From a virus: a stretch of DNA of 33,356 nt. Position numbers and translations under genes: made by a program. Shown here one piece after another: positions 8,510-25,142 of this stretch; the first letter of the stretch is position 1, and the number at the start of each line of letters is the position of its first letter. The stretch lies in the IMG/VR virus record IMGVR_UViG_3300035158_000257, positions 1 to 33,356 of that record; one strand, 5' to 3'. The notes beneath the pieces were generated by a model, which saw nothing but the letters and a program-made list of their open reading frames with translations, had not been told where the DNA came from and did no database searches.

Positions 8510-8779
8510 GTGTTCGAGGCTACTTATTGGCGGTGGCATAGTATCAAAGAGCACTACCCCGAAACCATTGTACTTCTACGCGTTCTAGACTACTACGAGG
8601 CCTTCGACGAGGACGCCAAAACCATTGCGGATATTTGCGGAAACATCCTACTGCACTTTGGAACGAGCGTGATGGCCGGGTGCCCAGTATTCTGCGTGGA
8701 TAGATATATTGATCAACTCAAAAACGCAGGTTACAACGTTGTTTTAGCCCTCAAAGAAGATGAGAACTGTTTCAATTGA
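8510..8779 (+). CDS. stand-alone MutS domain I (mismatch-recognition domain) protein
   Basis: GTG 8510 follows GAGAGGAG. The whole 89-residue protein aligns with the N-terminal domain of MutS: a short helix (YWRWHSIKEHYPETIVLLRV), then LDYYEAFDEDAKTIAD matching MutS GDFYELFYDDAKRAS, then VMAGCPVFCVDRYIDQLKNAGYNVVL matching PMAGIPYHAVENYLAKLV..G. In MutS the Phe of the F-x-E motif stacks on the mismatch; here it is Tyr-Tyr-Glu. No connector, clamp or ATPase domain is present. It could bind mismatched or damaged DNA or interfere with host repair; this is inference. Overlap with the next gene's upstream region indicates one operon. Confidence 0.8.
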   Translation: MFEATYWRWHSIKEHYPETIVLLRVLDYYEAFDEDAKTIADICGNILLHFGTSVMAGCPVFCVDRYIDQLKNAGYNVVLALKEDENCFN

Positions 8780-9346: not shown

Positions 9347-9574
9347 GTGGAACAGCTTGTGCGCTGGAAGAACATGGACGAGATTGTAGGTGGCGCAGCG
9401 CGACGCGCTATGAACGACGTCTCAGGAATACTCGAGGATAGCATAGAGCTTGAGATCGACTACTCTATGGGACTCGTTTGGGTCTATTATATACGGCTAG
9501 CAGATGATGGTAGCTTCAAACAGAGCAACGTAGGATACACTTTCTCGTCACTGACGGAGGAGAGCGGAGAATGA
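9347..9574 (+). CDS. small unknown protein
   Basis: GTG 9347 sits directly behind GGAGGAG and promoter P2. The 75-residue product has a helical first half and a beta-like second half (IELEIDYSMGLVWVYYIRL). It overlaps the next gene by 4 nt (ATGA), so it is co-translated with the winged-helix protein. Being first in the unit, it could be a partner of that regulator. No family recognised. Confidence 0.7.
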   Translation: MEQLVRWKNMDEIVGGAARRAMNDVSGILEDSIELEIDYSMGLVWVYYIRLADDGSFKQSNVGYTFSSLTEESGE

Positions 9575-9819
9575 AGACCGGCAAGCTAACGCCTCTGGAG
9601 AGTAAACTCCAAGGCTACTTGGCAGAACATTGCACATATACATCGTGCTCCTTAGAGACTCTCAGGGAAGACATTTGGGATGGGGAATGCGTGCGGGAGA
9701 ACGTTATAGTAGCTATCAGCAATCTTAGAAAGAAAATCGGATCAGATGCCGTCATTACGCTGCGGTCTATGGTGCCAGGTCAGGGACCACGTTATCTATT
9801 CAGAGGAGAAAATAAATGA
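9571..9819 (+). CDS. stand-alone PhoB/OmpR-type winged-helix DNA-binding protein
   Basis: ATG 9571 overlaps the previous stop; CGGAG is nearby. Nearly all 82 residues form the C-terminal effector fold of OmpR/PhoB response regulators: LTPLESKLQGYLAEHC at the start, SLETLREDIWDGE, then ENVIVAISNLRKKIGSDAVITLRSMVPGQGPRYLF, the recognition helix and wing. No receiver domain precedes it, so it cannot be controlled by phosphorylation in the usual way. A transcription regulator of phage genes is likely. The 13082 product has the same fold. Confidence 0.75.
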   Translation: MKTGKLTPLESKLQGYLAEHCTYTSCSLETLREDIWDGECVRENVIVAISNLRKKIGSDAVITLRSMVPGQGPRYLFRGENK

Positions 9820-10562: not shown

Positions 10563-10832
10563 ATGAATACAGCATTGCTTGTTTTTAAGTCGGTAGGCTG
10601 TCCACTTTGTAAAAAGCTGACACCGACCGTCAATCGTTTAGAGGAAGAGCACAATTTGCCTGTGCGCTTCCTTGAGGTAACGGACACAGATACCTTCTGG
10701 GTCAATGTATATGGGGTTTACACCTATCCCACGTTGATTTTGCTCCAGGAGGGCGTCCCTGTAAAACGCGCAACGGGTCTTGTACCCTACGGTGTGCTTA
10801 TAGGCTGGCTGGAGGGCTACTTGAATGCCTGA
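10563..10832 (+). CDS. thioredoxin/glutaredoxin-like protein
   Basis: ATG 10563 has GAGGGGG about 10 nt upstream. The 89-residue product shows the thioredoxin order: a first strand (TALLVFKSVG), the redox motif CPLC (about residues 13-16) at the start of a helix, strand VRFLEVTDTD, the cis-proline segment VYTYPTLILLQEGVPVKRATGLV, and a last helix (LIGWLEGYL). Both catalytic cysteines and the cis-Pro are present, so it is likely an active thiol-disulfide oxidoreductase. In phages such proteins can reduce ribonucleotide reductase or act as polymerase cofactors; no ribonucleotide reductase gene is in this window. Confidence 0.8.
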   Translation: MNTALLVFKSVGCPLCKKLTPTVNRLEEEHNLPVRFLEVTDTDTFWVNVYGVYTYPTLILLQEGVPVKRATGLVPYGVLIGWLEGYLNA

Positions 10833-13081: not shown

Positions 13082-13633
13082 ATGTTTTTTCTGCGCCGAA
13101 GCTACGTTGTGCACAAGGATGAGATTGTCAGTCTGTCGGACACTGAATACAGAGTAATGCTGCACTTAGCTATAAATGCCGGGCAGTGGTGCTCGAAGCG
13201 GGACATCATTGCTATCGTGTGGCCTGAAAAGGACCCGTATGAAAATATCGTAGCCGACTACGTAAGTCGTCTGCGGGCGAAGCTCGGCGATGACGTCATC
13301 CAAACTAACTCACGGCGCCCGGAAACCGCGTACCGAACGCATGAAGCCGTAGAGGGGTCAGTGATCACCCCGCGTTGGGCGGCCGTGGCCGCAGTACACT
13401 CACCGGATGTAAACTACGAGATAGTCGATATCGAAACCAATAGAACGATAGCTCACATCTACCATCGAAACCCGCGCTACGCCCGGGCCTGTGCGTTGGC
13501 TGAAGAGCTACGGACAGCCCTCGGGGGCGTCGTGGAGGTGCTCAAGGGTGAGGCGAGTACGAAAGAGCGACAGTTCAGTTTACAGATGGCTGAAGACGTT
13601 TTGCAGTTAGTGGAGGGGACAGAAAACAAATGA
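13082..13633 (+). CDS. PhoB/OmpR-type winged-helix protein with C-terminal extension
   Basis: ATG 13082 lies behind AGGAGGAGA. Residues about 15-75 form an OmpR/PhoB-type winged helix (LSDTEYRVMLHLAINAGQW, RDIIAIVWPEKDP, IVADYVSRLRAKLGDDVIQT), paralogous to the 9571 product. The second half (about residues 95-183) has a separate alpha/beta region (YEIVDIETNRTIAHIYHRNPR) and a Glu-rich helical tail. It resembles short phage proteins that carry '.I......R....A.AL...L'. A transcription regulator is likely; no receiver domain. Its end overlaps the next gene (ATGA). Confidence 0.75.
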   Translation: MFFLRRSYVVHKDEIVSLSDTEYRVMLHLAINAGQWCSKRDIIAIVWPEKDPYENIVADYVSRLRAKLGDDVIQTNSRRPETAYRTHEAVEGSVITPRWAAVAAVHSPDVNYEIVDIETNRTIAHIYHRNPRYARACALAEELRTALGGVVEVLKGEASTKERQFSLQMAEDVLQLVEGTENK

Positions 13634-17504: not shown

Positions 17505-18494
17505 ATGTACGAGATACATATCTCCGAGGTAAACACATTTAGAAGCTGTCGCTTGAAGTGGCACTTCTCCAGTAGAAACCGTTTGAACCTGGAACACAAG
17601 TTCCCGTATTCTCCGTTTTTCATCGGCAGTGCGATGCACTACGGTATTGCCGCCTTCTACACAGGGGGGCTGGACGGCGCAAAGCGAGCCCTGTCGCAGT
17701 ATCTATCTCGGAAGACCGAGGATCTCGGCGCGTACAACCTCACTGGGGCGGAGTGGGCGAAGATCGACGAGGATATCGCGCTGGCCCACGGCATGATTGA
17801 GAACTATGCTCGGTGGTGGGGTAGCGGTCACGATGACTTCGATGTCGTGCCGGAGCTGCCCATTGTCGTAGATCGTGGTGACTACAAGTACCGCGGGACG
17901 GCAGATGGTTTGATCACCTGGAATGGGGAGCACTACTGGGCGGAGTTCAAGACCGCGGCGAGACTTCCGAAGTCTGGAGAGCCCCTTCTGTACGACAATC
18001 AGCACGTTGCCTATCTGTGGGGCGCGACACAGGATCCTTCGTATGCCGATCTGGACATCCAGGGCGTGTTGTTCACGTTCCTGCGGAAAAAGCTCCCGAC
18101 AGTGCCAAAGTTGACAAAGTCGGGCGCTGTGTCACGACGCAAGATCACAACGACCTACGAGACGTATCTACGGGTCATCCAGGAGAACGGCTTGGTTCCC
18201 TCGGACTACAGAGACTACCTGGAGCGTCTAAAAAATCAGGACAGTCCGTTCTTCCAGCGATACATGATGCGGAGAAACATGAGGCGCCTGAAGGTATTCG
18301 AGCGGGACTTTGAGAGCACCGTGGAAAAGATGACTAATGACCCTGAAATATACCCATCCCCCACACGATGGTACTGCTCCAGATGTCCATACAACGATTT
18401 ATGTAAAGTTTACCTCTATGGAGGTAATATCGAGCCGGTTGTCGAGGCCAACTACCGGCCGCGCGAGGCTAGCGAATTAGAAGTCATACCGTAG
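17505..18494 (+). CDS. PD-(D/E)XK nuclease with Fe-S cysteines (Cas4/RecB-like phage exonuclease)
   Basis: ATG 17505 follows AAAGGGGGACG. The 329-residue product has an N-terminal Cys in EVNTFRSCRLKWHF (C15). The nuclease core follows: FFIGSAMHYGIAAF, then GTADGLITWNGEHYWAEFKTAA (about residues 131-152) with the catalytic Asp and Glu-x-Lys, then QHVAYLWGA. A C-terminal WYCSRCPYNDLC (about residues 288-300) completes the four cysteines that hold an Fe-S cluster in Cas4/AddB-type enzymes. In phages such genes sit next to Sak4 and SSB genes, as here, and supply a recombination exonuclease. No CRISPR array or other Cas gene is present. Confidence 0.85.
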   Translation: MYEIHISEVNTFRSCRLKWHFSSRNRLNLEHKFPYSPFFIGSAMHYGIAAFYTGGLDGAKRALSQYLSRKTEDLGAYNLTGAEWAKIDEDIALAHGMIENYARWWGSGHDDFDVVPELPIVVDRGDYKYRGTADGLITWNGEHYWAEFKTAARLPKSGEPLLYDNQHVAYLWGATQDPSYADLDIQGVLFTFLRKKLPTVPKLTKSGAVSRRKITTTYETYLRVIQENGLVPSDYRDYLERLKNQDSPFFQRYMMRRNMRRLKVFERDFESTVEKMTNDPEIYPSPTRWYCSRCPYNDLCKVYLYGGNIEPVVEANYRPREASELEVIP

Positions 18495-18508: not shown

Positions 18509-19666
18509 ATGCCAGTTCAGAAGATAAGTCAGACGGTACCATATCTCAAGGTGCTCATTTATGGCGATAGTGGCGCTGGAAAAACGTGGCTTGCGGGTTC
18601 CGCAGCCGATGTAGAAGCTATGCGTCCTGTACTGTTCGTCGATTTGGAGTCGGGCGTGTTGTCTATTCGCGATCGCGATGTCGACTTGCTTCCAGTCAGA
18701 TCCCATGCGGACCTCCAGGAGTTATCCGATCTCATAAGCAACCCATCGCCCGAGGATGGCGAGGATGAGCCGTACAGAACAGTTGTAATCGATTCCCTTA
18801 CAGAGCTTTACGCGCTGAATATGGAGATACAGCTTCGTGCGGAGCAGCGCCCCAACGCCGTACCGGAGCTCAGGGACTGGCTGCAGTGTGTTTCTGAGGG
18901 GTCGCGTATTTTTATGGCGGATGGCTCAGAAAAACCGATTGAAAGTATCGTACCTGGAGACGTAGTTCTGGGTTTATCCCAGAAAAATCATTGTCGACTA
19001 GTACCTACTGTTGTCGATCGTGTTATTCTACAGGGAGAAAAACCTTGTGTGAAAGTTAATAACCTGCGGCTAACGGCAGATCATAGAGTTATGACCCGTG
19101 AAGACACACATCTTGCGTGGCGTACTCCGGAGGAATTGGCTACGCTTAATTCTGGTCCAGAAGTGGTCCAGTTGTCTACAGTACATAAGCGTGAAAAGAT
19201 TCTCGGACATCAAGTCCATAGTCTGTGGCGCTCAGGTTCCCTACACATGTCCAATCCAAAGAAACGACAAGTATACGATTTAACTACAGGGACGGGGAAC
19301 TTTTTCGCAGAGGGTATATTGGTTCACAACTGCACGAATAAGATGCGTCGCTTTTTACGCTTCGTCCGACAGCAGCCAATCCATTTTATTACAACCTGCC
19401 AGGCCCGTGTGCTAGACGATGAACTCACAGGGGCAGTATCCAGGGTACCTGATTTGCCCGGTAAGCTAGCGGGGCAGGTGGGGCACTTTTTTGACATCGT
19501 CGGTTACATCAAATCGTCTTTGGACCGCTCTGGAGAGACTGTAACGCGAACTTTGCAGGTACAGCCCTACCGAAGGGTTAGTGCTAAGGACCGCACCGGA
19601 CAATTTGGTGTGGCGGTAGAAGATCCAACGATGGCTAAACTATACTCGGCCATCACGGAAGAATAG
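18509..19666 (+). CDS. Sak4-like RecA-fold ATPase precursor interrupted by a mini-intein
   Basis: ATG 18509 has AGGAGGG upstream. The precursor is 385 residues; removing the intein (127-274) leaves a 237-residue RecA-like NTPase, the usual size of Sak4 annealing proteins. The N-extein carries Walker A (YGDSGAGKTWL, about residues 18-28) and Walker B (YRTVVIDSLTEL, 89-100). The C-extein starts at Cys275 and includes HFITTCQAR and a late DIVGYI strand. Neighbours are a Cas4-like nuclease and a DUF669 SSB, the standard Sak4 recombination set. Intein splicing would be needed for function; the insertion lies just after the Walker B region. Confidence 0.85.
   Translation: MPVQKISQTVPYLKVLIYGDSGAGKTWLAGSAADVEAMRPVLFVDLESGVLSIRDRDVDLLPVRSHADLQELSDLISNPSPEDGEDEPYRTVVIDSLTELYALNMEIQLRAEQRPNAVPELRDWLQCVSEGSRIFMADGSEKPIESIVPGDVVLGLSQKNHCRLVPTVVDRVILQGEKPCVKVNNLRLTADHRVMTREDTHLAWRTPEELATLNSGPEVVQLSTVHKREKILGHQVHSLWRSGSLHMSNPKKRQVYDLTTGTGNFFAEGILVHNCTNKMRRFLRFVRQQPIHFITTCQARVLDDELTGAVSRVPDLPGKLAGQVGHFFDIVGYIKSSLDRSGETVTRTLQVQPYRRVSAKDRTGQFGVAVEDPTMAKLYSAITEE
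18887..19330 (+). other. mini-intein (148 residues, no homing endonuclease) within the Sak4-like gene
   Basis: The element runs from Cys127 to Asn274 of the precursor. Block A is CVSEGSRIFMADGSEKPIES, with the first Cys as nucleophile. Block B is LRLTADHRVMT with the T-x-x-H residues. Block F is VYDLTTGTGNFFAEGILVHN, and block G ends in His-Asn before +1 Cys. All splicing residues are present. The region between blocks B and F is only about 58 residues, and I see no LAGLIDADG or HNH motif, so the intein is of minimal type and cannot home by itself. Confidence 0.9.
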
Positions 19667-19748: not shown

Positions 19749-20195
19749 ATGTCTGATCAGGCAGGAACGATCCACGTAGATCTGACCGGCGTATCAACAG
19801 AGCTTGAGCCCATCCCGCCGGGGATTTACAACGCGACAGTAGTAGAAGTAGAACAGAAGACATCCAAGAAAGGCAACCCGTACCTGAACTGGAAGTTCGA
19901 CGTGGAACCGAATCCCGACACTGGTTTCGATGGCAGCACCCCCGCGTGGTCGACCACGAGTTTGCTACCAGACGCCCTGTGGAACTTGAAGCGAACCCTG
20001 CAGGCGCTAGGCTACACGGAAGATCAGCTTGAGGGTGAGCTAGCCTTGGATCCCTTCGATCTCGTCGGTCTAGAATGCACTTTGGTTATCGTGGCCGACT
20101 GGTACGAGGGCAAGGAAGTTTCCCGCGTAGACGAGGTGCTCCCACCTGGAGCCGCTCCGGAAGGTCCAGCGGAAGAAGACACAGATTTATTCTAG
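19749..20195 (+). CDS. DUF669-like single-stranded DNA-binding protein
   Basis: ATG 19749 follows AAAGGAGACAGTAA. The 148-residue product has the OB-fold-like core of phage DUF669 proteins: LEPIPPGIYNATVVEVEQKTSKKGNPYLNWKFDV (about residues 20-53), then NLKRTLQALGY and a second beta part (DLVGLECTLVIVADWYEG). It ends with an acidic, proline-rich tail and a terminal aromatic (EEDTDLF). That matches the C-terminal interaction tip of bacterial SSB proteins (acidic residues then Phe). Its position next to Sak4 supports a recombination and replication SSB. Confidence 0.8.
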   Translation: MSDQAGTIHVDLTGVSTELEPIPPGIYNATVVEVEQKTSKKGNPYLNWKFDVEPNPDTGFDGSTPAWSTTSLLPDALWNLKRTLQALGYTEDQLEGELALDPFDLVGLECTLVIVADWYEGKEVSRVDEVLPPGAAPEGPAEEDTDLF

Positions 20196-20262: not shown

Positions 20263-22830
20263 GTGGCAAGTGTGTCAGAATTTCTGAACGTTATCTTCGA
20301 CGGTGTATTGGATGAAGAGCACAAAATAGATTTTCGTATCCTAGACCCCGCGAAAAGTGGCCCCGTGAGTCACTTTACTACAGCGGACACCGATGTAGTA
20401 TACAAGTATATCTCAGAACATGGCTGGTCAAAAGGTCACCACGTGTTTTTCGGCGTCGTCCCCCGGCCCATCGAGGGCGTACAGTGCCTCTGGGCTGATC
20501 TGGATGGCAGCGATTTCGGTGGTGGTAAAGAACAGGCGAAGGTCGCAGCCGAGGAGGCGTTTCCACTTAAACCGTCTATTGTCGTCGACTCGGGGCACGG
20601 CTACCACCTATATTGGCGCCTAAAAAGCCTAGTGGATCCTGCACAGGCCGAGGAAGTTATGAAGTCCCTGGAGGACGTTCTTAACGGTGATTCCACCAGC
20701 GATCCGACCAGATTTTTGCGCCTTCCTGGAACACAGAACCCTAAAGATCCCCGTGTTCTGTGTCAGATAGAGACACTTAGACCAGAGAAGACGTACGCTT
20801 TAGAGGACTTCAAAGCAGCTTTTCGGGTACCCCCGCGGGTCATGGACAGGATACGCTCGGAAAGCCACAAAGGGTACAAGTCTCGCTCGGAGCGTGATTG
20901 GTTTGTCACGACCGCTCTTGTACAGACGGGCCTCAGAAACTCCCTTATCAAGGAGATATTCTACGAGTGGCCGATCGGAAACAAGGTTAGAGAAGAGCCC
21001 GGAGACCACTACATAGAGTATACAATCGCGAAGGCACACGAGAGTCTCAGACACAGTACTCGTACTACGTCGGAGGCTGAGGCGCGGTTCTACATCGAGG
21101 ATGATGACTCCTTATGGTCGGTTCGTGACGACCAGGACCCGCGTCGTGCTAGTACCTTTTGGTTTGAGCCACAGCGAGTTATCGAGAGCGGTGATGGGGA
21201 TATCCTCGAGGGGACGATTCACGCGCATGAACATACATGGCCTGGAGAACGGCTTGAGAAGCACGCTTTTGACAGCGCTAGAAACCTGAAAGCCGAGTTG
21301 CGCCTGGGGTCGTGGTGTTGGTTTGGATCGGACAAGGACACGCAGCTTTACCTGGAGTACATCATGCGCAAGCTAGAAGAGGACGGCATGCCGCGTGCTC
21401 AGGGGGAGATCGCCATCGGGCGTCACGGTGACTTTTGGGTTTCTCCTGGCATGACGTTTACCAGGGACGAAGTTTTCTCGCCCGCTGAGGCCCCTATAGC
21501 ATTTGTGGACCGCGGACTTGAATACCCTGACATGAAGTACAGCTTCGAGTCCGAAGATATGTACCGCGAGCTATGTCGTGATATTTTCACACATTTTGAG
21601 GATCTGGTTAATCCACAGGCCCTGTGGACGATCGCCGGTTGGAACTTTGCCGCGCCGCTGAAGCCCCTGCTTTTTGACGCGGGAATACGCTTTCCTCATC
21701 TCGACTTGTACGGCACCCGAGGCTCCGGTAAGACGACCATTATACGAAATATCTTCCAACCACTATTGGGCGCAGAGCGGCCAACTTATCACGACTGTCA
21801 GACGACAGCTTTTGTGCTTCTTGGCCTTTTGTCCTCAACGAATAGCTTTCCTGTGCTACTTGCAGAGTTTCATCGCAGCATCCTTCCACAGCCCGTGTAC
21901 AACCGTCTGTTGCGTACGCTAAAACTGGCCTACGACTCGGGGTTCGACAGCCGCGGGCGACCAAACCAGACCATTGAGGAGTATCCATTAACAGCGCCGA
22001 TTATTCTCGATGGCGAGGATGCACTATCCGACGCTGCTGTTCAGGAGCGCTCGATTATTGTAAACCTATCGCCAGAAGACGTCATGGAAGGTACGTCCGC
22101 CCACCGGGCGTATAAGGCGCTTACAGAGATGGATTTGCACAGATTCGCAGGCAACTTTATACGTTATACCCTAGAGTACACCGAGGACGACGCAAAGGCG
22201 CTATATCTTGAAGCACGTGGGCGAATTATGAACGCTTTTCCAGAGAAGCTACCGGACCGCGTTCGATCCAATATCTGCGTTGTAGGTTCTGGCCTCGTCC
22301 TATTAGAGAGATACGCAAATCGTGTGGGCTTTGACGTACCGAACTTCGACGCGGATTTCCTGCGCGAGCGCCTGTTTCCCGCGTTGGAGGCGGTTGTGGA
22401 CCTGGAGCACGGACGTACTAGAACACTGGCCGATGCCCTTATTGAGGATCTAGTGAACCACTTAGAGCTATGTGGGCAAAACAGGTGGGAAGTTCCGTTC
22501 TTCGCTCGATACAACGACGAGGCAAATGAGATCTGGTTTCAACTTGCGTCGGCGCACAATTGGTGGTTAGCTCAGCGCCGCCGCCGTGGGCTGGCCGTTC
22601 TTGACGATACGGCTTTAACAACCCAGTTGCAGGAACGGTTTGTAGCTCGACGGGGCGGCGTTGGGCAGTACATCTTAGAGCCAAAGTCAGTTCGCATTGG
22701 GGGCAGCGTCCAGTGGGCTTACGGTGTGGATGTAGATAAGGCTCTGGAAGCCGGTTTGGACATACCAGCGACGCTCACGCCAAAGGACACCTTAATCGTA
22801 AATATCTCATCAAAAGGGAGTGCAAAATGA
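20263..22830 (+). CDS. primase-helicase fusion (archaeo-eukaryotic-type primase plus SF3/AAA-like helicase)
   Basis: GTG 20263 follows TAGGAG. The first 180 residues of 855 carry motifs of the archaeo-eukaryotic primase fold as in RepB-type and PrimPol proteins: LWADLDGSDF (79-85, catalytic acidic pair), VVDSGHGYHLYWRL (107-120) and SDPTRFLRLPGTQNPK (146-161). A middle region of about 250 residues has no clear motif. Walker A, YGTRGSGKTT, lies at 483-492, followed by LLAEFHR and PLTAPIILDGEDAL as later ATPase motifs. The last 120 residues may bind DNA. It would prime and unwind at the phage fork. The next gene overlaps by 4 nt. Confidence 0.85.
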   Translation: MASVSEFLNVIFDGVLDEEHKIDFRILDPAKSGPVSHFTTADTDVVYKYISEHGWSKGHHVFFGVVPRPIEGVQCLWADLDGSDFGGGKEQAKVAAEEAFPLKPSIVVDSGHGYHLYWRLKSLVDPAQAEEVMKSLEDVLNGDSTSDPTRFLRLPGTQNPKDPRVLCQIETLRPEKTYALEDFKAAFRVPPRVMDRIRSESHKGYKSRSERDWFVTTALVQTGLRNSLIKEIFYEWPIGNKVREEPGDHYIEYTIAKAHESLRHSTRTTSEAEARFYIEDDDSLWSVRDDQDPRRASTFWFEPQRVIESGDGDILEGTIHAHEHTWPGERLEKHAFDSARNLKAELRLGSWCWFGSDKDTQLYLEYIMRKLEEDGMPRAQGEIAIGRHGDFWVSPGMTFTRDEVFSPAEAPIAFVDRGLEYPDMKYSFESEDMYRELCRDIFTHFEDLVNPQALWTIAGWNFAAPLKPLLFDAGIRFPHLDLYGTRGSGKTTIIRNIFQPLLGAERPTYHDCQTTAFVLLGLLSSTNSFPVLLAEFHRSILPQPVYNRLLRTLKLAYDSGFDSRGRPNQTIEEYPLTAPIILDGEDALSDAAVQERSIIVNLSPEDVMEGTSAHRAYKALTEMDLHRFAGNFIRYTLEYTEDDAKALYLEARGRIMNAFPEKLPDRVRSNICVVGSGLVLLERYANRVGFDVPNFDADFLRERLFPALEAVVDLEHGRTRTLADALIEDLVNHLELCGQNRWEVPFFARYNDEANEIWFQLASAHNWWLAQRRRRGLAVLDDTALTTQLQERFVARRGGVGQYILEPKSVRIGGSVQWAYGVDVDKALEAGLDIPATLTPKDTLIVNISSKGSAK

Positions 22831-25142
22831 CGCAGAAAGCGCCGTTTGCCAAATGCAAGGAGTGCCCGCTTAATGACCGCCCCTTTGTACCAGGGTCCGG
22901 GGATGACCGCGGAATAGACGTCGTCATCGTAGGGGAGGCTCCAGGAAACGTCGAGGCACAAAAGAAAGTTCCCTTCGTGGGGCCCTCGGGGGAGATCCTA
23001 CGAAGGACATTGGACACCTTCGGAGCCACAGGTGTATGGATAACGAACGTATTAGCTTGTCACCCACCGGGCAATAACTTCAATGCAGAGGCTGCAGCAT
23101 GTTGCCACAAAAGGTTAATTGAGGAGATCAAAATGCACACCCCCCGTGTCGTTTTGGCTTTGGGGAACGAAGCCGCGAAGTCGCTGCTTGGAGATGGGCC
23201 GGGAATTACAAATCGCCGCGGTATTATAGGGCATTCTACAGAGCTGGATGTCAATGTGATGCCCACGGTACATCCTGCCTACGTTCTTCGCCGCCCTGTG
23301 GTATGGCGCGACTTCGTGGAGGATGTCAGGAGAGCTTTGCGGCCAGAGCAGCGCTACGTGCAGCTCAAGAACCCAGAAGGCCCCTACGCGTGGAGCGAAG
23401 AGGTCACGGTCAGTCAGCAGCTAGCTACAATAGAGGCATTCATACGTGATCCACGTCCCGTGACATACGACTTAGAGACCACGGGGTTTGACCCTCGTAA
23501 GAATCGTGTTGTCGCTATCGTGCTATGCAACACGCCGGGAACGGCACGGGTGCTTTATGGGGATAACCTCTACAATCCGCGAGTGAAACGTGCCTTGCGG
23601 CGGCTTTTCGAGACTAGTGGACATGACATAAACGGCCACAACCAGAAGTTCGATCAGCGATTCCTTATGGAGCAGCTGTCTATAGCTGCGCCGCCCGCTT
23701 GGGATACAATGCTCGGCAATTACATTCTTGATGAGCGCCGCGGGCAGCATGGCTTAAAGCTCCTGGCTCGTAGAACGTTCGATGCCCCAGATTGGGAAGA
23801 GCCCCTGCGTGTATACATGGAGAAGCACGATTTAACCTCGTATGGAGATGTACCAGGCCGGATGCTTACGCGCTACGCTGCTTGGGACGGAGACTACACG
23901 CATCGGCTATTTGTCCATCAGCAGGACGAATATGAGGATTTCCCGAAACAGCGGAAACTCATGGAGGAGCTAATGCTGCCTGCTAGCTCAGCGCTGGCCG
24001 AGATAGAGAATCGCGGCATGCTGGTCGATCAGGACACGATAGAGGAAGTCACAGAGGACTTTACACAGCGCGTAGAGGACATTCGAGAAGAGCTGTGTGC
24101 GATTGCGGGTGATCCGGAGTTTAATCCTAACTCCTTTCAGCAGGCCGCGCACATCATGTATGATGTGCTAGATCTCCCTGAAGTTGAGGGGCGTACGACG
24201 AAGAAGGAAGTGTTGAAACGCTTTAGCAAGCGTGTTCCATTCTGCGAAAAGATGATCGAGTACCGCTATCTGTACAAGCGTCTTTCTGTGGACTGTCGCG
24301 GTATCGCTGAAAAAATTGAGAGCGACGGCCGTGTGCGTACGAACTTTTTGTTGCACGGTACGCGTACGGGGCGCTTGGCTTCAAGTGATCCCAACCTGCA
24401 AAACATCCCCAGACAGCCGTCGTCTATACGTTCGTTTTTTGTCGCGCCCGAAGGAAAGATCTTTGTTGATGTTGACTTCTCCCAGGCGGAGCTCCGGATC
24501 CTGGGCTTTCTGTCGCAGGAGGACTTTTTCGTCAACGCCTACAGAGAAGGTCGCGATATACACGACGAGGTCGCCGAGATGCTCTTTGGTAAGGACTTCA
24601 CGAAGTACCAGCGTACCATGGGAAAGTCCTTTTCGTTTGGTCTTATCTATGGTCGCGGTGCGGACGCAATCGCAGCGGAGTACGGGATGTCCTATAAGCA
24701 GGCCGAGGCCATGATGAAGCAGTTCCTTGGACGCATCCCGAAGGCTCGAGAGTGGATCAAAGAAACACACCGCACAGTGCGAGAGCACGGCTATCTGGAA
24801 ACGCTGTACGGACGGAGACGCCGTTTTCCGCTTATTACAAGCCGTTTCGAATCTAGTATAATGCGTCAAGCGCAGAACTTCCCTGTGCAGTCCGTCGCCA
24901 GCGATCTAACGTTGGAATCTCTTGTAGCCATGAACGACGCTGGTATGGAGATTGTATCTACCGTGCATGACTCGATTATGCTATACTGCGATCCGGATGA
25001 TCTGAATGATATCCTGCGAGAAGCCCAGCGTCTGACTGCCAATATCGCTCGTGAGCGGATCGGAGATGAGATTCCGTTTCCTATCGAGGCGAAAGTCGGT
25101 CACGCTTGGGGAAAACTAGAAGAAGTGGAGATGCCAAAATGA
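22827..25142 (+). CDS. uracil-DNA glycosylase / family A DNA polymerase fusion
   Basis: ATG 22827 overlaps the primase-helicase stop. Residues 1-175 form a family 4-type uracil-DNA glycosylase: Cys10 and Cys13, VGEAPG..EA and PFVGPSGEIL, LACHPPGN and ACCHKRLIEEI (other cluster cysteines), and HPAYVLRRP. Residues about 210-380 form a 3'-5' exonuclease with DLET, GHNQKFD and YAAWDGD, so proofreading is probably active. The polymerase has motif A DVDFSQAELRIL (about 546), motif B RTMGKSFSFGLIYG (about 594) and motif C STVHDSI (about 709). One protein could thus sense or remove uracil and copy DNA, as proposed for some large phages such as SPO1. Confidence 0.9.
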   Translation: MTQKAPFAKCKECPLNDRPFVPGSGDDRGIDVVIVGEAPGNVEAQKKVPFVGPSGEILRRTLDTFGATGVWITNVLACHPPGNNFNAEAAACCHKRLIEEIKMHTPRVVLALGNEAAKSLLGDGPGITNRRGIIGHSTELDVNVMPTVHPAYVLRRPVVWRDFVEDVRRALRPEQRYVQLKNPEGPYAWSEEVTVSQQLATIEAFIRDPRPVTYDLETTGFDPRKNRVVAIVLCNTPGTARVLYGDNLYNPRVKRALRRLFETSGHDINGHNQKFDQRFLMEQLSIAAPPAWDTMLGNYILDERRGQHGLKLLARRTFDAPDWEEPLRVYMEKHDLTSYGDVPGRMLTRYAAWDGDYTHRLFVHQQDEYEDFPKQRKLMEELMLPASSALAEIENRGMLVDQDTIEEVTEDFTQRVEDIREELCAIAGDPEFNPNSFQQAAHIMYDVLDLPEVEGRTTKKEVLKRFSKRVPFCEKMIEYRYLYKRLSVDCRGIAEKIESDGRVRTNFLLHGTRTGRLASSDPNLQNIPRQPSSIRSFFVAPEGKIFVDVDFSQAELRILGFLSQEDFFVNAYREGRDIHDEVAEMLFGKDFTKYQRTMGKSFSFGLIYGRGADAIAAEYGMSYKQAEAMMKQFLGRIPKAREWIKETHRTVREHGYLETLYGRRRRFPLITSRFESSIMRQAQNFPVQSVASDLTLESLVAMNDAGMEIVSTVHDSIMLYCDPDDLNDILREAQRLTANIARERIGDEIPFPIEAKVGHAWGKLEEVEMPK

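Follow-up and report, generated by a model that had tools for sequence, protein, structure and literature searches.

The window analysed here, a single metagenomic IMG/VR virus record of 33,356 bases, carries a recombination module in which a gene for a Sak4-like protein is located between an exonuclease gene and a DUF669/SSB-like gene and is interrupted by a putative mini-intein (Table 1). The Sak4 precursor gene has AGGAGG, a good ribosome-binding site, ahead of its ATG, and its frame remains open over 385 codons, with no stop and no frameshift. The SSB-like gene is followed by genes for a primase-like protein, for a DNA polymerase I that carries a family 4 uracil-DNA glycosylase domain at its N-terminus within one ORF (22827-25142, +), and for a SNF2 helicase. 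The order exonuclease, Sak4, SSB-like protein and primase is common to Weizmannia phage Youna2 and Bacillus phage BSTP12; we found no near-identical phage, and a polymerase-based search for kin returned none. Several further genes of the window deserve mention in their own right: an 89-aa ORF (8510-8779, +) that matches only MutS domain I (PF01624, 2.7e-13), i.e., a phage-encoded mismatch-recognition domain on its own; two small winged-helix proteins of the OmpR/PhoB type (Trans_reg_C; 9571-9819 and 13082-13633, both +); a short thioredoxin-like protein (10563-10832, +; 2.6e-8); and a protein with a partial match to the ERCC4 nuclease domain (1960-2358, +; 2.4e-6).

Table 1. Coordinates of the Sak4 precursor gene, its predicted intein and the flanking recombination genes within the window.
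Feature	Position (nt)	Strand	Evidence and details
PD-(D/E)XK exonuclease, recombination-module neighbour	17505..18494	+	PF12705, 1.6e-18; phrog_1218, 1.6e-36
Sak4 precursor gene	18509..19666	+	385 aa, stop codon included; PHROG 124, Sak4-like
N-extein, residues 1-126	18509..18886	+	Walker A GDSGAGKT, 18563-18586; Walker B TVVIDS, 18779-18796
Predicted mini-intein, residues 127-274, 148 aa, no endonuclease domain	18887..19330	+	TIGR01443 above cut-off; PF14890 over full span, below cut-off; GC3
Intein block A, first residue Cys127 (Cys1)	18887..18967	+	TIGR01445, weak (15.5 bits vs cut-off of 24.5)
Intein block B with TADH (residues 189-192, nt 19073-19084)	19064..19138	+	Motif
Intein blocks F and G, His273-Asn274 end, usual block F His absent	19265..19330	+	TIGR01443, E 1.2e-6; gapless match to NEQ528 C-intein
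C-extein, first residue Cys275 (+1 nucleophile)	19331..19666	+	Alignment, boundary test, motif
DUF669/SSB-like protein, recombination-module neighbour	19749..20195	+	PF05037, 7.6e-6; phrog_378 (SSB), 2e-6

The host protein is a Sak4-type RecA-core single-strand annealing protein, in agreement with an earlier annotation made from the letters of the window (hereafter the sequence-only reading), and this assignment follows from PHROG 124 together with the best fold match. The Sak4-like family PHROG 124 matches the precursor in two stretches (4.7e-35) and the 237-aa intein-free host in one (4.7e-41), and the match to AAA_24 moves from 4.3e-18 with the intein to 3e-22 after its removal. The host has a RecA-core fold with Walker A and Walker B motifs and is without the RecA C-terminal domain, while the C-extein retains the conserved AKDR motif and the C-terminal region. 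A PDB fold search gave as its best match the Sak4 of phage 52A solved with the SaPI2 Stl repressor (8rc5, E 6.6e-7), which was also the only clear match in a profile search (2.6e-13). In the predicted structure of the precursor, computed with 58 intein-free homologues, most of the host is confident (183 residues at pLDDT of at least 90) and the insertion falls between two helices, with the intein part mostly of low confidence. The Sak4 of HK620 carries out ATP-dependent single-strand annealing (PMC5928155) and Sak4 is needed for the replication of staphylococcal phage phi11, where it is essential (PMC5499656), which lends weight to the important role that the sequence-only reading had ascribed to the protein. 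As a separate observation, an intein-free relative with 36% identity is present on a contig labelled Candidatus Altiarchaeales (L158), representing either a virus of archaea or an error in binning.

Judged from its sequence, the insert is very probably a class 1 mini-intein that lacks an endonuclease and resides inside a phage Sak4 gene, and we extend this high confidence to the joint explanation developed below, i.e., class 1 cis-splicing that restores Sak4, horizontal origin and persistence. The complete mini-intein of 148 residues that had been called in this ORF is upheld by the match of its C-terminus to TIGR01443 (intein_Cterm), which at 28.5 bits lies above the cut-off of 15.6, and by the location of the splice residues: Cys127, the TADH motif, a block F Asp and His273-Asn274, followed by Cys275 at the +1 position. 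The accompanying statement that all splicing motifs are in place holds for Cys1, TxxH, His-Asn and the +1 Cys and goes slightly too far for block F, in which the Asp is present and the usual His is absent. PF14890 matches the insert over positions 2-155 of its 155 (E 1.7e-6), with a score of 28.3 bits that is below the cut-off of 35.8, and the Sak4 insert gives the only PF14890 match in the virus record. The intein carries two further cysteines, at intein positions 36 and 54. Blocks B and F are 42 residues apart, a spacing that leaves too little room for a homing endonuclease, and a Pfam scan of 48 window ORFs (a set that leaves out some short ORFs) found no HNH, LAGLIDADG or GIY-YIG family, such that the earlier reading was also right to see no homing endonuclease in the intein. 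The single-sequence structure model of the intein alone has a pLDDT of 35.5, which is too low for its fold to be read.

The insertion occurs after Gln126, between Walker B and the next core strand and directly following a conserved D-W/Y-G motif; by topology, this site probably corresponds to the RecA L1 region. It had been placed just after Walker B, which is correct as to order, the actual distance being 31 residues beyond Asp95 of Walker B. Residue 125 of the host is Leu where most homologues have Gly, making the extein near the junction atypical, and the solved Sak4 structure 8rc5 has a Cys in the +1 column (DWGE-C), such that an uninterrupted Sak4 can accommodate the +1 nucleophile.

The intein call had been staked in part on homologues without the insertion aligning seamlessly across residues 126 and 275, and this is what we observe: the spliced sequence, aligned with 84 homologues, runs from residue 126 to residue 127 without a gap, and none of the 301 loci spanning the site (213 distinct proteins) has an insertion, defined as at least 60 extra residues. 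The loci were gathered with full-length, N-terminal-only and C-terminal-only Sak4 queries, the latter two because scans for the best full-length match could hide intein-bearing genes, and these rescans revealed no intein-bearing Sak4 gene. Seeming partial matches were traced to contig ends or short loci (L046, L236, L248, L311 and L162) or to a run of masked sequence (L163), and L161 is an intact Sak4 locus. Of 525 phage records matching the spliced host, 475 cover at least 80% of it in one place, and each of the 60 phage matches listed is a single unbroken piece. When the boundaries were tested against a model of intein-free homologues, the precursor scored 198.5 bits and the join 126/275 scored 217.3 bits, ranking third among 324 variants and 0.1 bit below the best. 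Given that this join is nearly tied with the best ones, homology leaves an uncertainty of a few residues at the edges, which the splice motifs remove.

The base composition of the insert differs from that of the gene around it. GC3 falls from 0.57 in the exteins to 0.36 in the intein (Fisher p 1.6e-4), and not one of 1923 overlapping 148-codon stretches taken from five neighbouring genes has a value as low (minimum 0.50). This low GC3 supports a horizontal arrival, with a composition not yet adjusted to the host genome, and hence the past horizontal movement suggested by the sequence-only reading. Viral contigs contained no close relative of the intein, phages and plasmids gave distant or partial matches only, and some 690 genomes of two phyla held no close relative and one distant match in each set (398 and 291 genomes). 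Among the distant matches, L169 does not end in His-Asn and resembles a Hint domain that does not splice; L170 is an intein in a terminase-like gene of a bacterial genome and, at 367 aa, is big enough to contain an endonuclease. NF038136 (the Rv2578c intein) was dismissed as a specific relative, unrelated phage inteins matching it too, which marks the signal as generic.

From the sequence we infer cis-splicing of the ordinary class 1 type as the most likely mechanism, which would restore Sak4. After translation Cys127, assisted by His192, would attack the carbonyl of Gln126, the N-extein would be transferred to Cys275, and Asn274 would cyclise with the aid of His273, yielding a ligated Sak4 of 237 aa with the junction RDWLQ-CTNKM. 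Since the intein interrupts the ATPase core, its removal is probably a prerequisite for Sak4 function, and the spliced protein would then serve phage DNA replication and recombination together with the exonuclease and SSB-like protein encoded next to it. The intein would have come by horizontal transfer, probably while it or a relative still had an endonuclease, and would persist because its loss needs a precise deletion from a needed gene.

The missing block F His and the atypical Leu125 beside the junction would also fit a decayed or cleavage-only intein that has kept its motifs and lost ligation, with the phage relying on host RecA or another annealing protein. We consider this improbable, though worth keeping in mind: the nucleophiles, the TxxH motif and the penultimate His are all intact, the 385-codon frame is unbroken and the C-extein has kept both its AKDR motif and its C-terminal region, and the NEQ528 intein discussed below has the same block F pattern. 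Splicing might instead be controlled by redox state, temperature or DNA, releasing Sak4 under some conditions only, a conditional switch that the sequence-only reading had considered possible. Such switches are reported for other inteins (PMC5790916, PMC6195587) and the cysteines at intein positions 36 and 54 would suit one, but the sequence points to no specific signal and no allele was found elsewhere that would offer conservation to compare, and we regard conditional control as decidedly unlikely. Harder still to credit is the intein as a timer, in which unspliced Sak4 cannot form filaments and the rate of splicing delays recombinase activity, shielding Sak4 at the start of infection against defences that bind or detect phage recombinases; Stl2 of SaPI2, which acts on Sak4 in this way, is an example (PMC11846896). 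That an intein fragment was joined to the Sak4 gene during metagenomic assembly is close to inconceivable, for although there is a single metagenomic record and the base composition shifts within the gene, both junctions preserve the reading frame and coincide with splice residues, leaving the exteins complete and without additions, and a chance join would not achieve this twice.

Inteins are common in DNA-handling genes, and the class 1 cis-splicing element that we favour for Sak4 leaves the understanding of inteins unchanged. It resembles class 1 mini-inteins (PF14890, TIGR01443/TIGR01445) in its Cys1, TxxH, His-Asn and Cys+1 residues, in its length of about 150 aa and in its in-frame position inside a P-loop ATPase, but is divergent from them, with PF14890 and TIGR01445 below cut-off and the block F His absent. 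NEQ528 of Nanoarchaeum equitans is an active split intein. The last 24 residues of the Sak4 intein align without gaps with the C-part of NEQ528 (PDB 5oxx, 5oxz) and both are without the block F His, whereas NEQ528 is split, belongs to another host protein and matches the Sak4 intein only weakly overall (E 0.11). The His-less block F makes the Sak4 intein a useful natural mini-intein variant. The Sak4 proteins of phage 52A (8rc5) and HK620 (PMC5928155) belong to the same RecA-core annealing family as the host and have no intein. Mycobacteriophage inteins, as described in the parts of Kelley (2016) drawn on here, occur in terminases, RecB/Cas4-like nucleases, phage ATPases and other DNA proteins, often beside conserved motifs, and Sak4 is not among the hosts named in those parts (PMC5050341). 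A literature search for intein and Sak4 together yielded no description of an intein-bearing Sak4.

The nearest analogue that we found is UvsX of Proteus phage Pm5461, an intein in a phage RecA-like recombinase. There the gene is split over two ORFs that flank an endonuclease-annotated ORF, whereas the Sak4 intein is contained in one ORF, and the insertion lies at RecA model positions ~203-214, a different place in the RecA fold. The Pm5461 locus is of interest in itself as a split-intein recombinase, its UvsX ORFs ending and starting with intein halves (L010:1868-4195). In addition, Vibrio phage 13VV501A has a RadD-like helicase gene, annotated as a P-loop protein only, that appears to be interrupted by two inteins (about 147 and 143 aa), located in the P-loop and at the DEC motif (L009:1652-4153). 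Sak4 is small and assayable, which makes the precursor convenient for testing intein gating of a phage recombinase. Set against these systems, the Sak4 intein, the only one in this protein in the collections searched, is a known kind of element in a new host family and at a new site: it extends the range of intein hosts to a phage annealing-protein family and supplies an insertion point directly after D-W-G of the RecA core.
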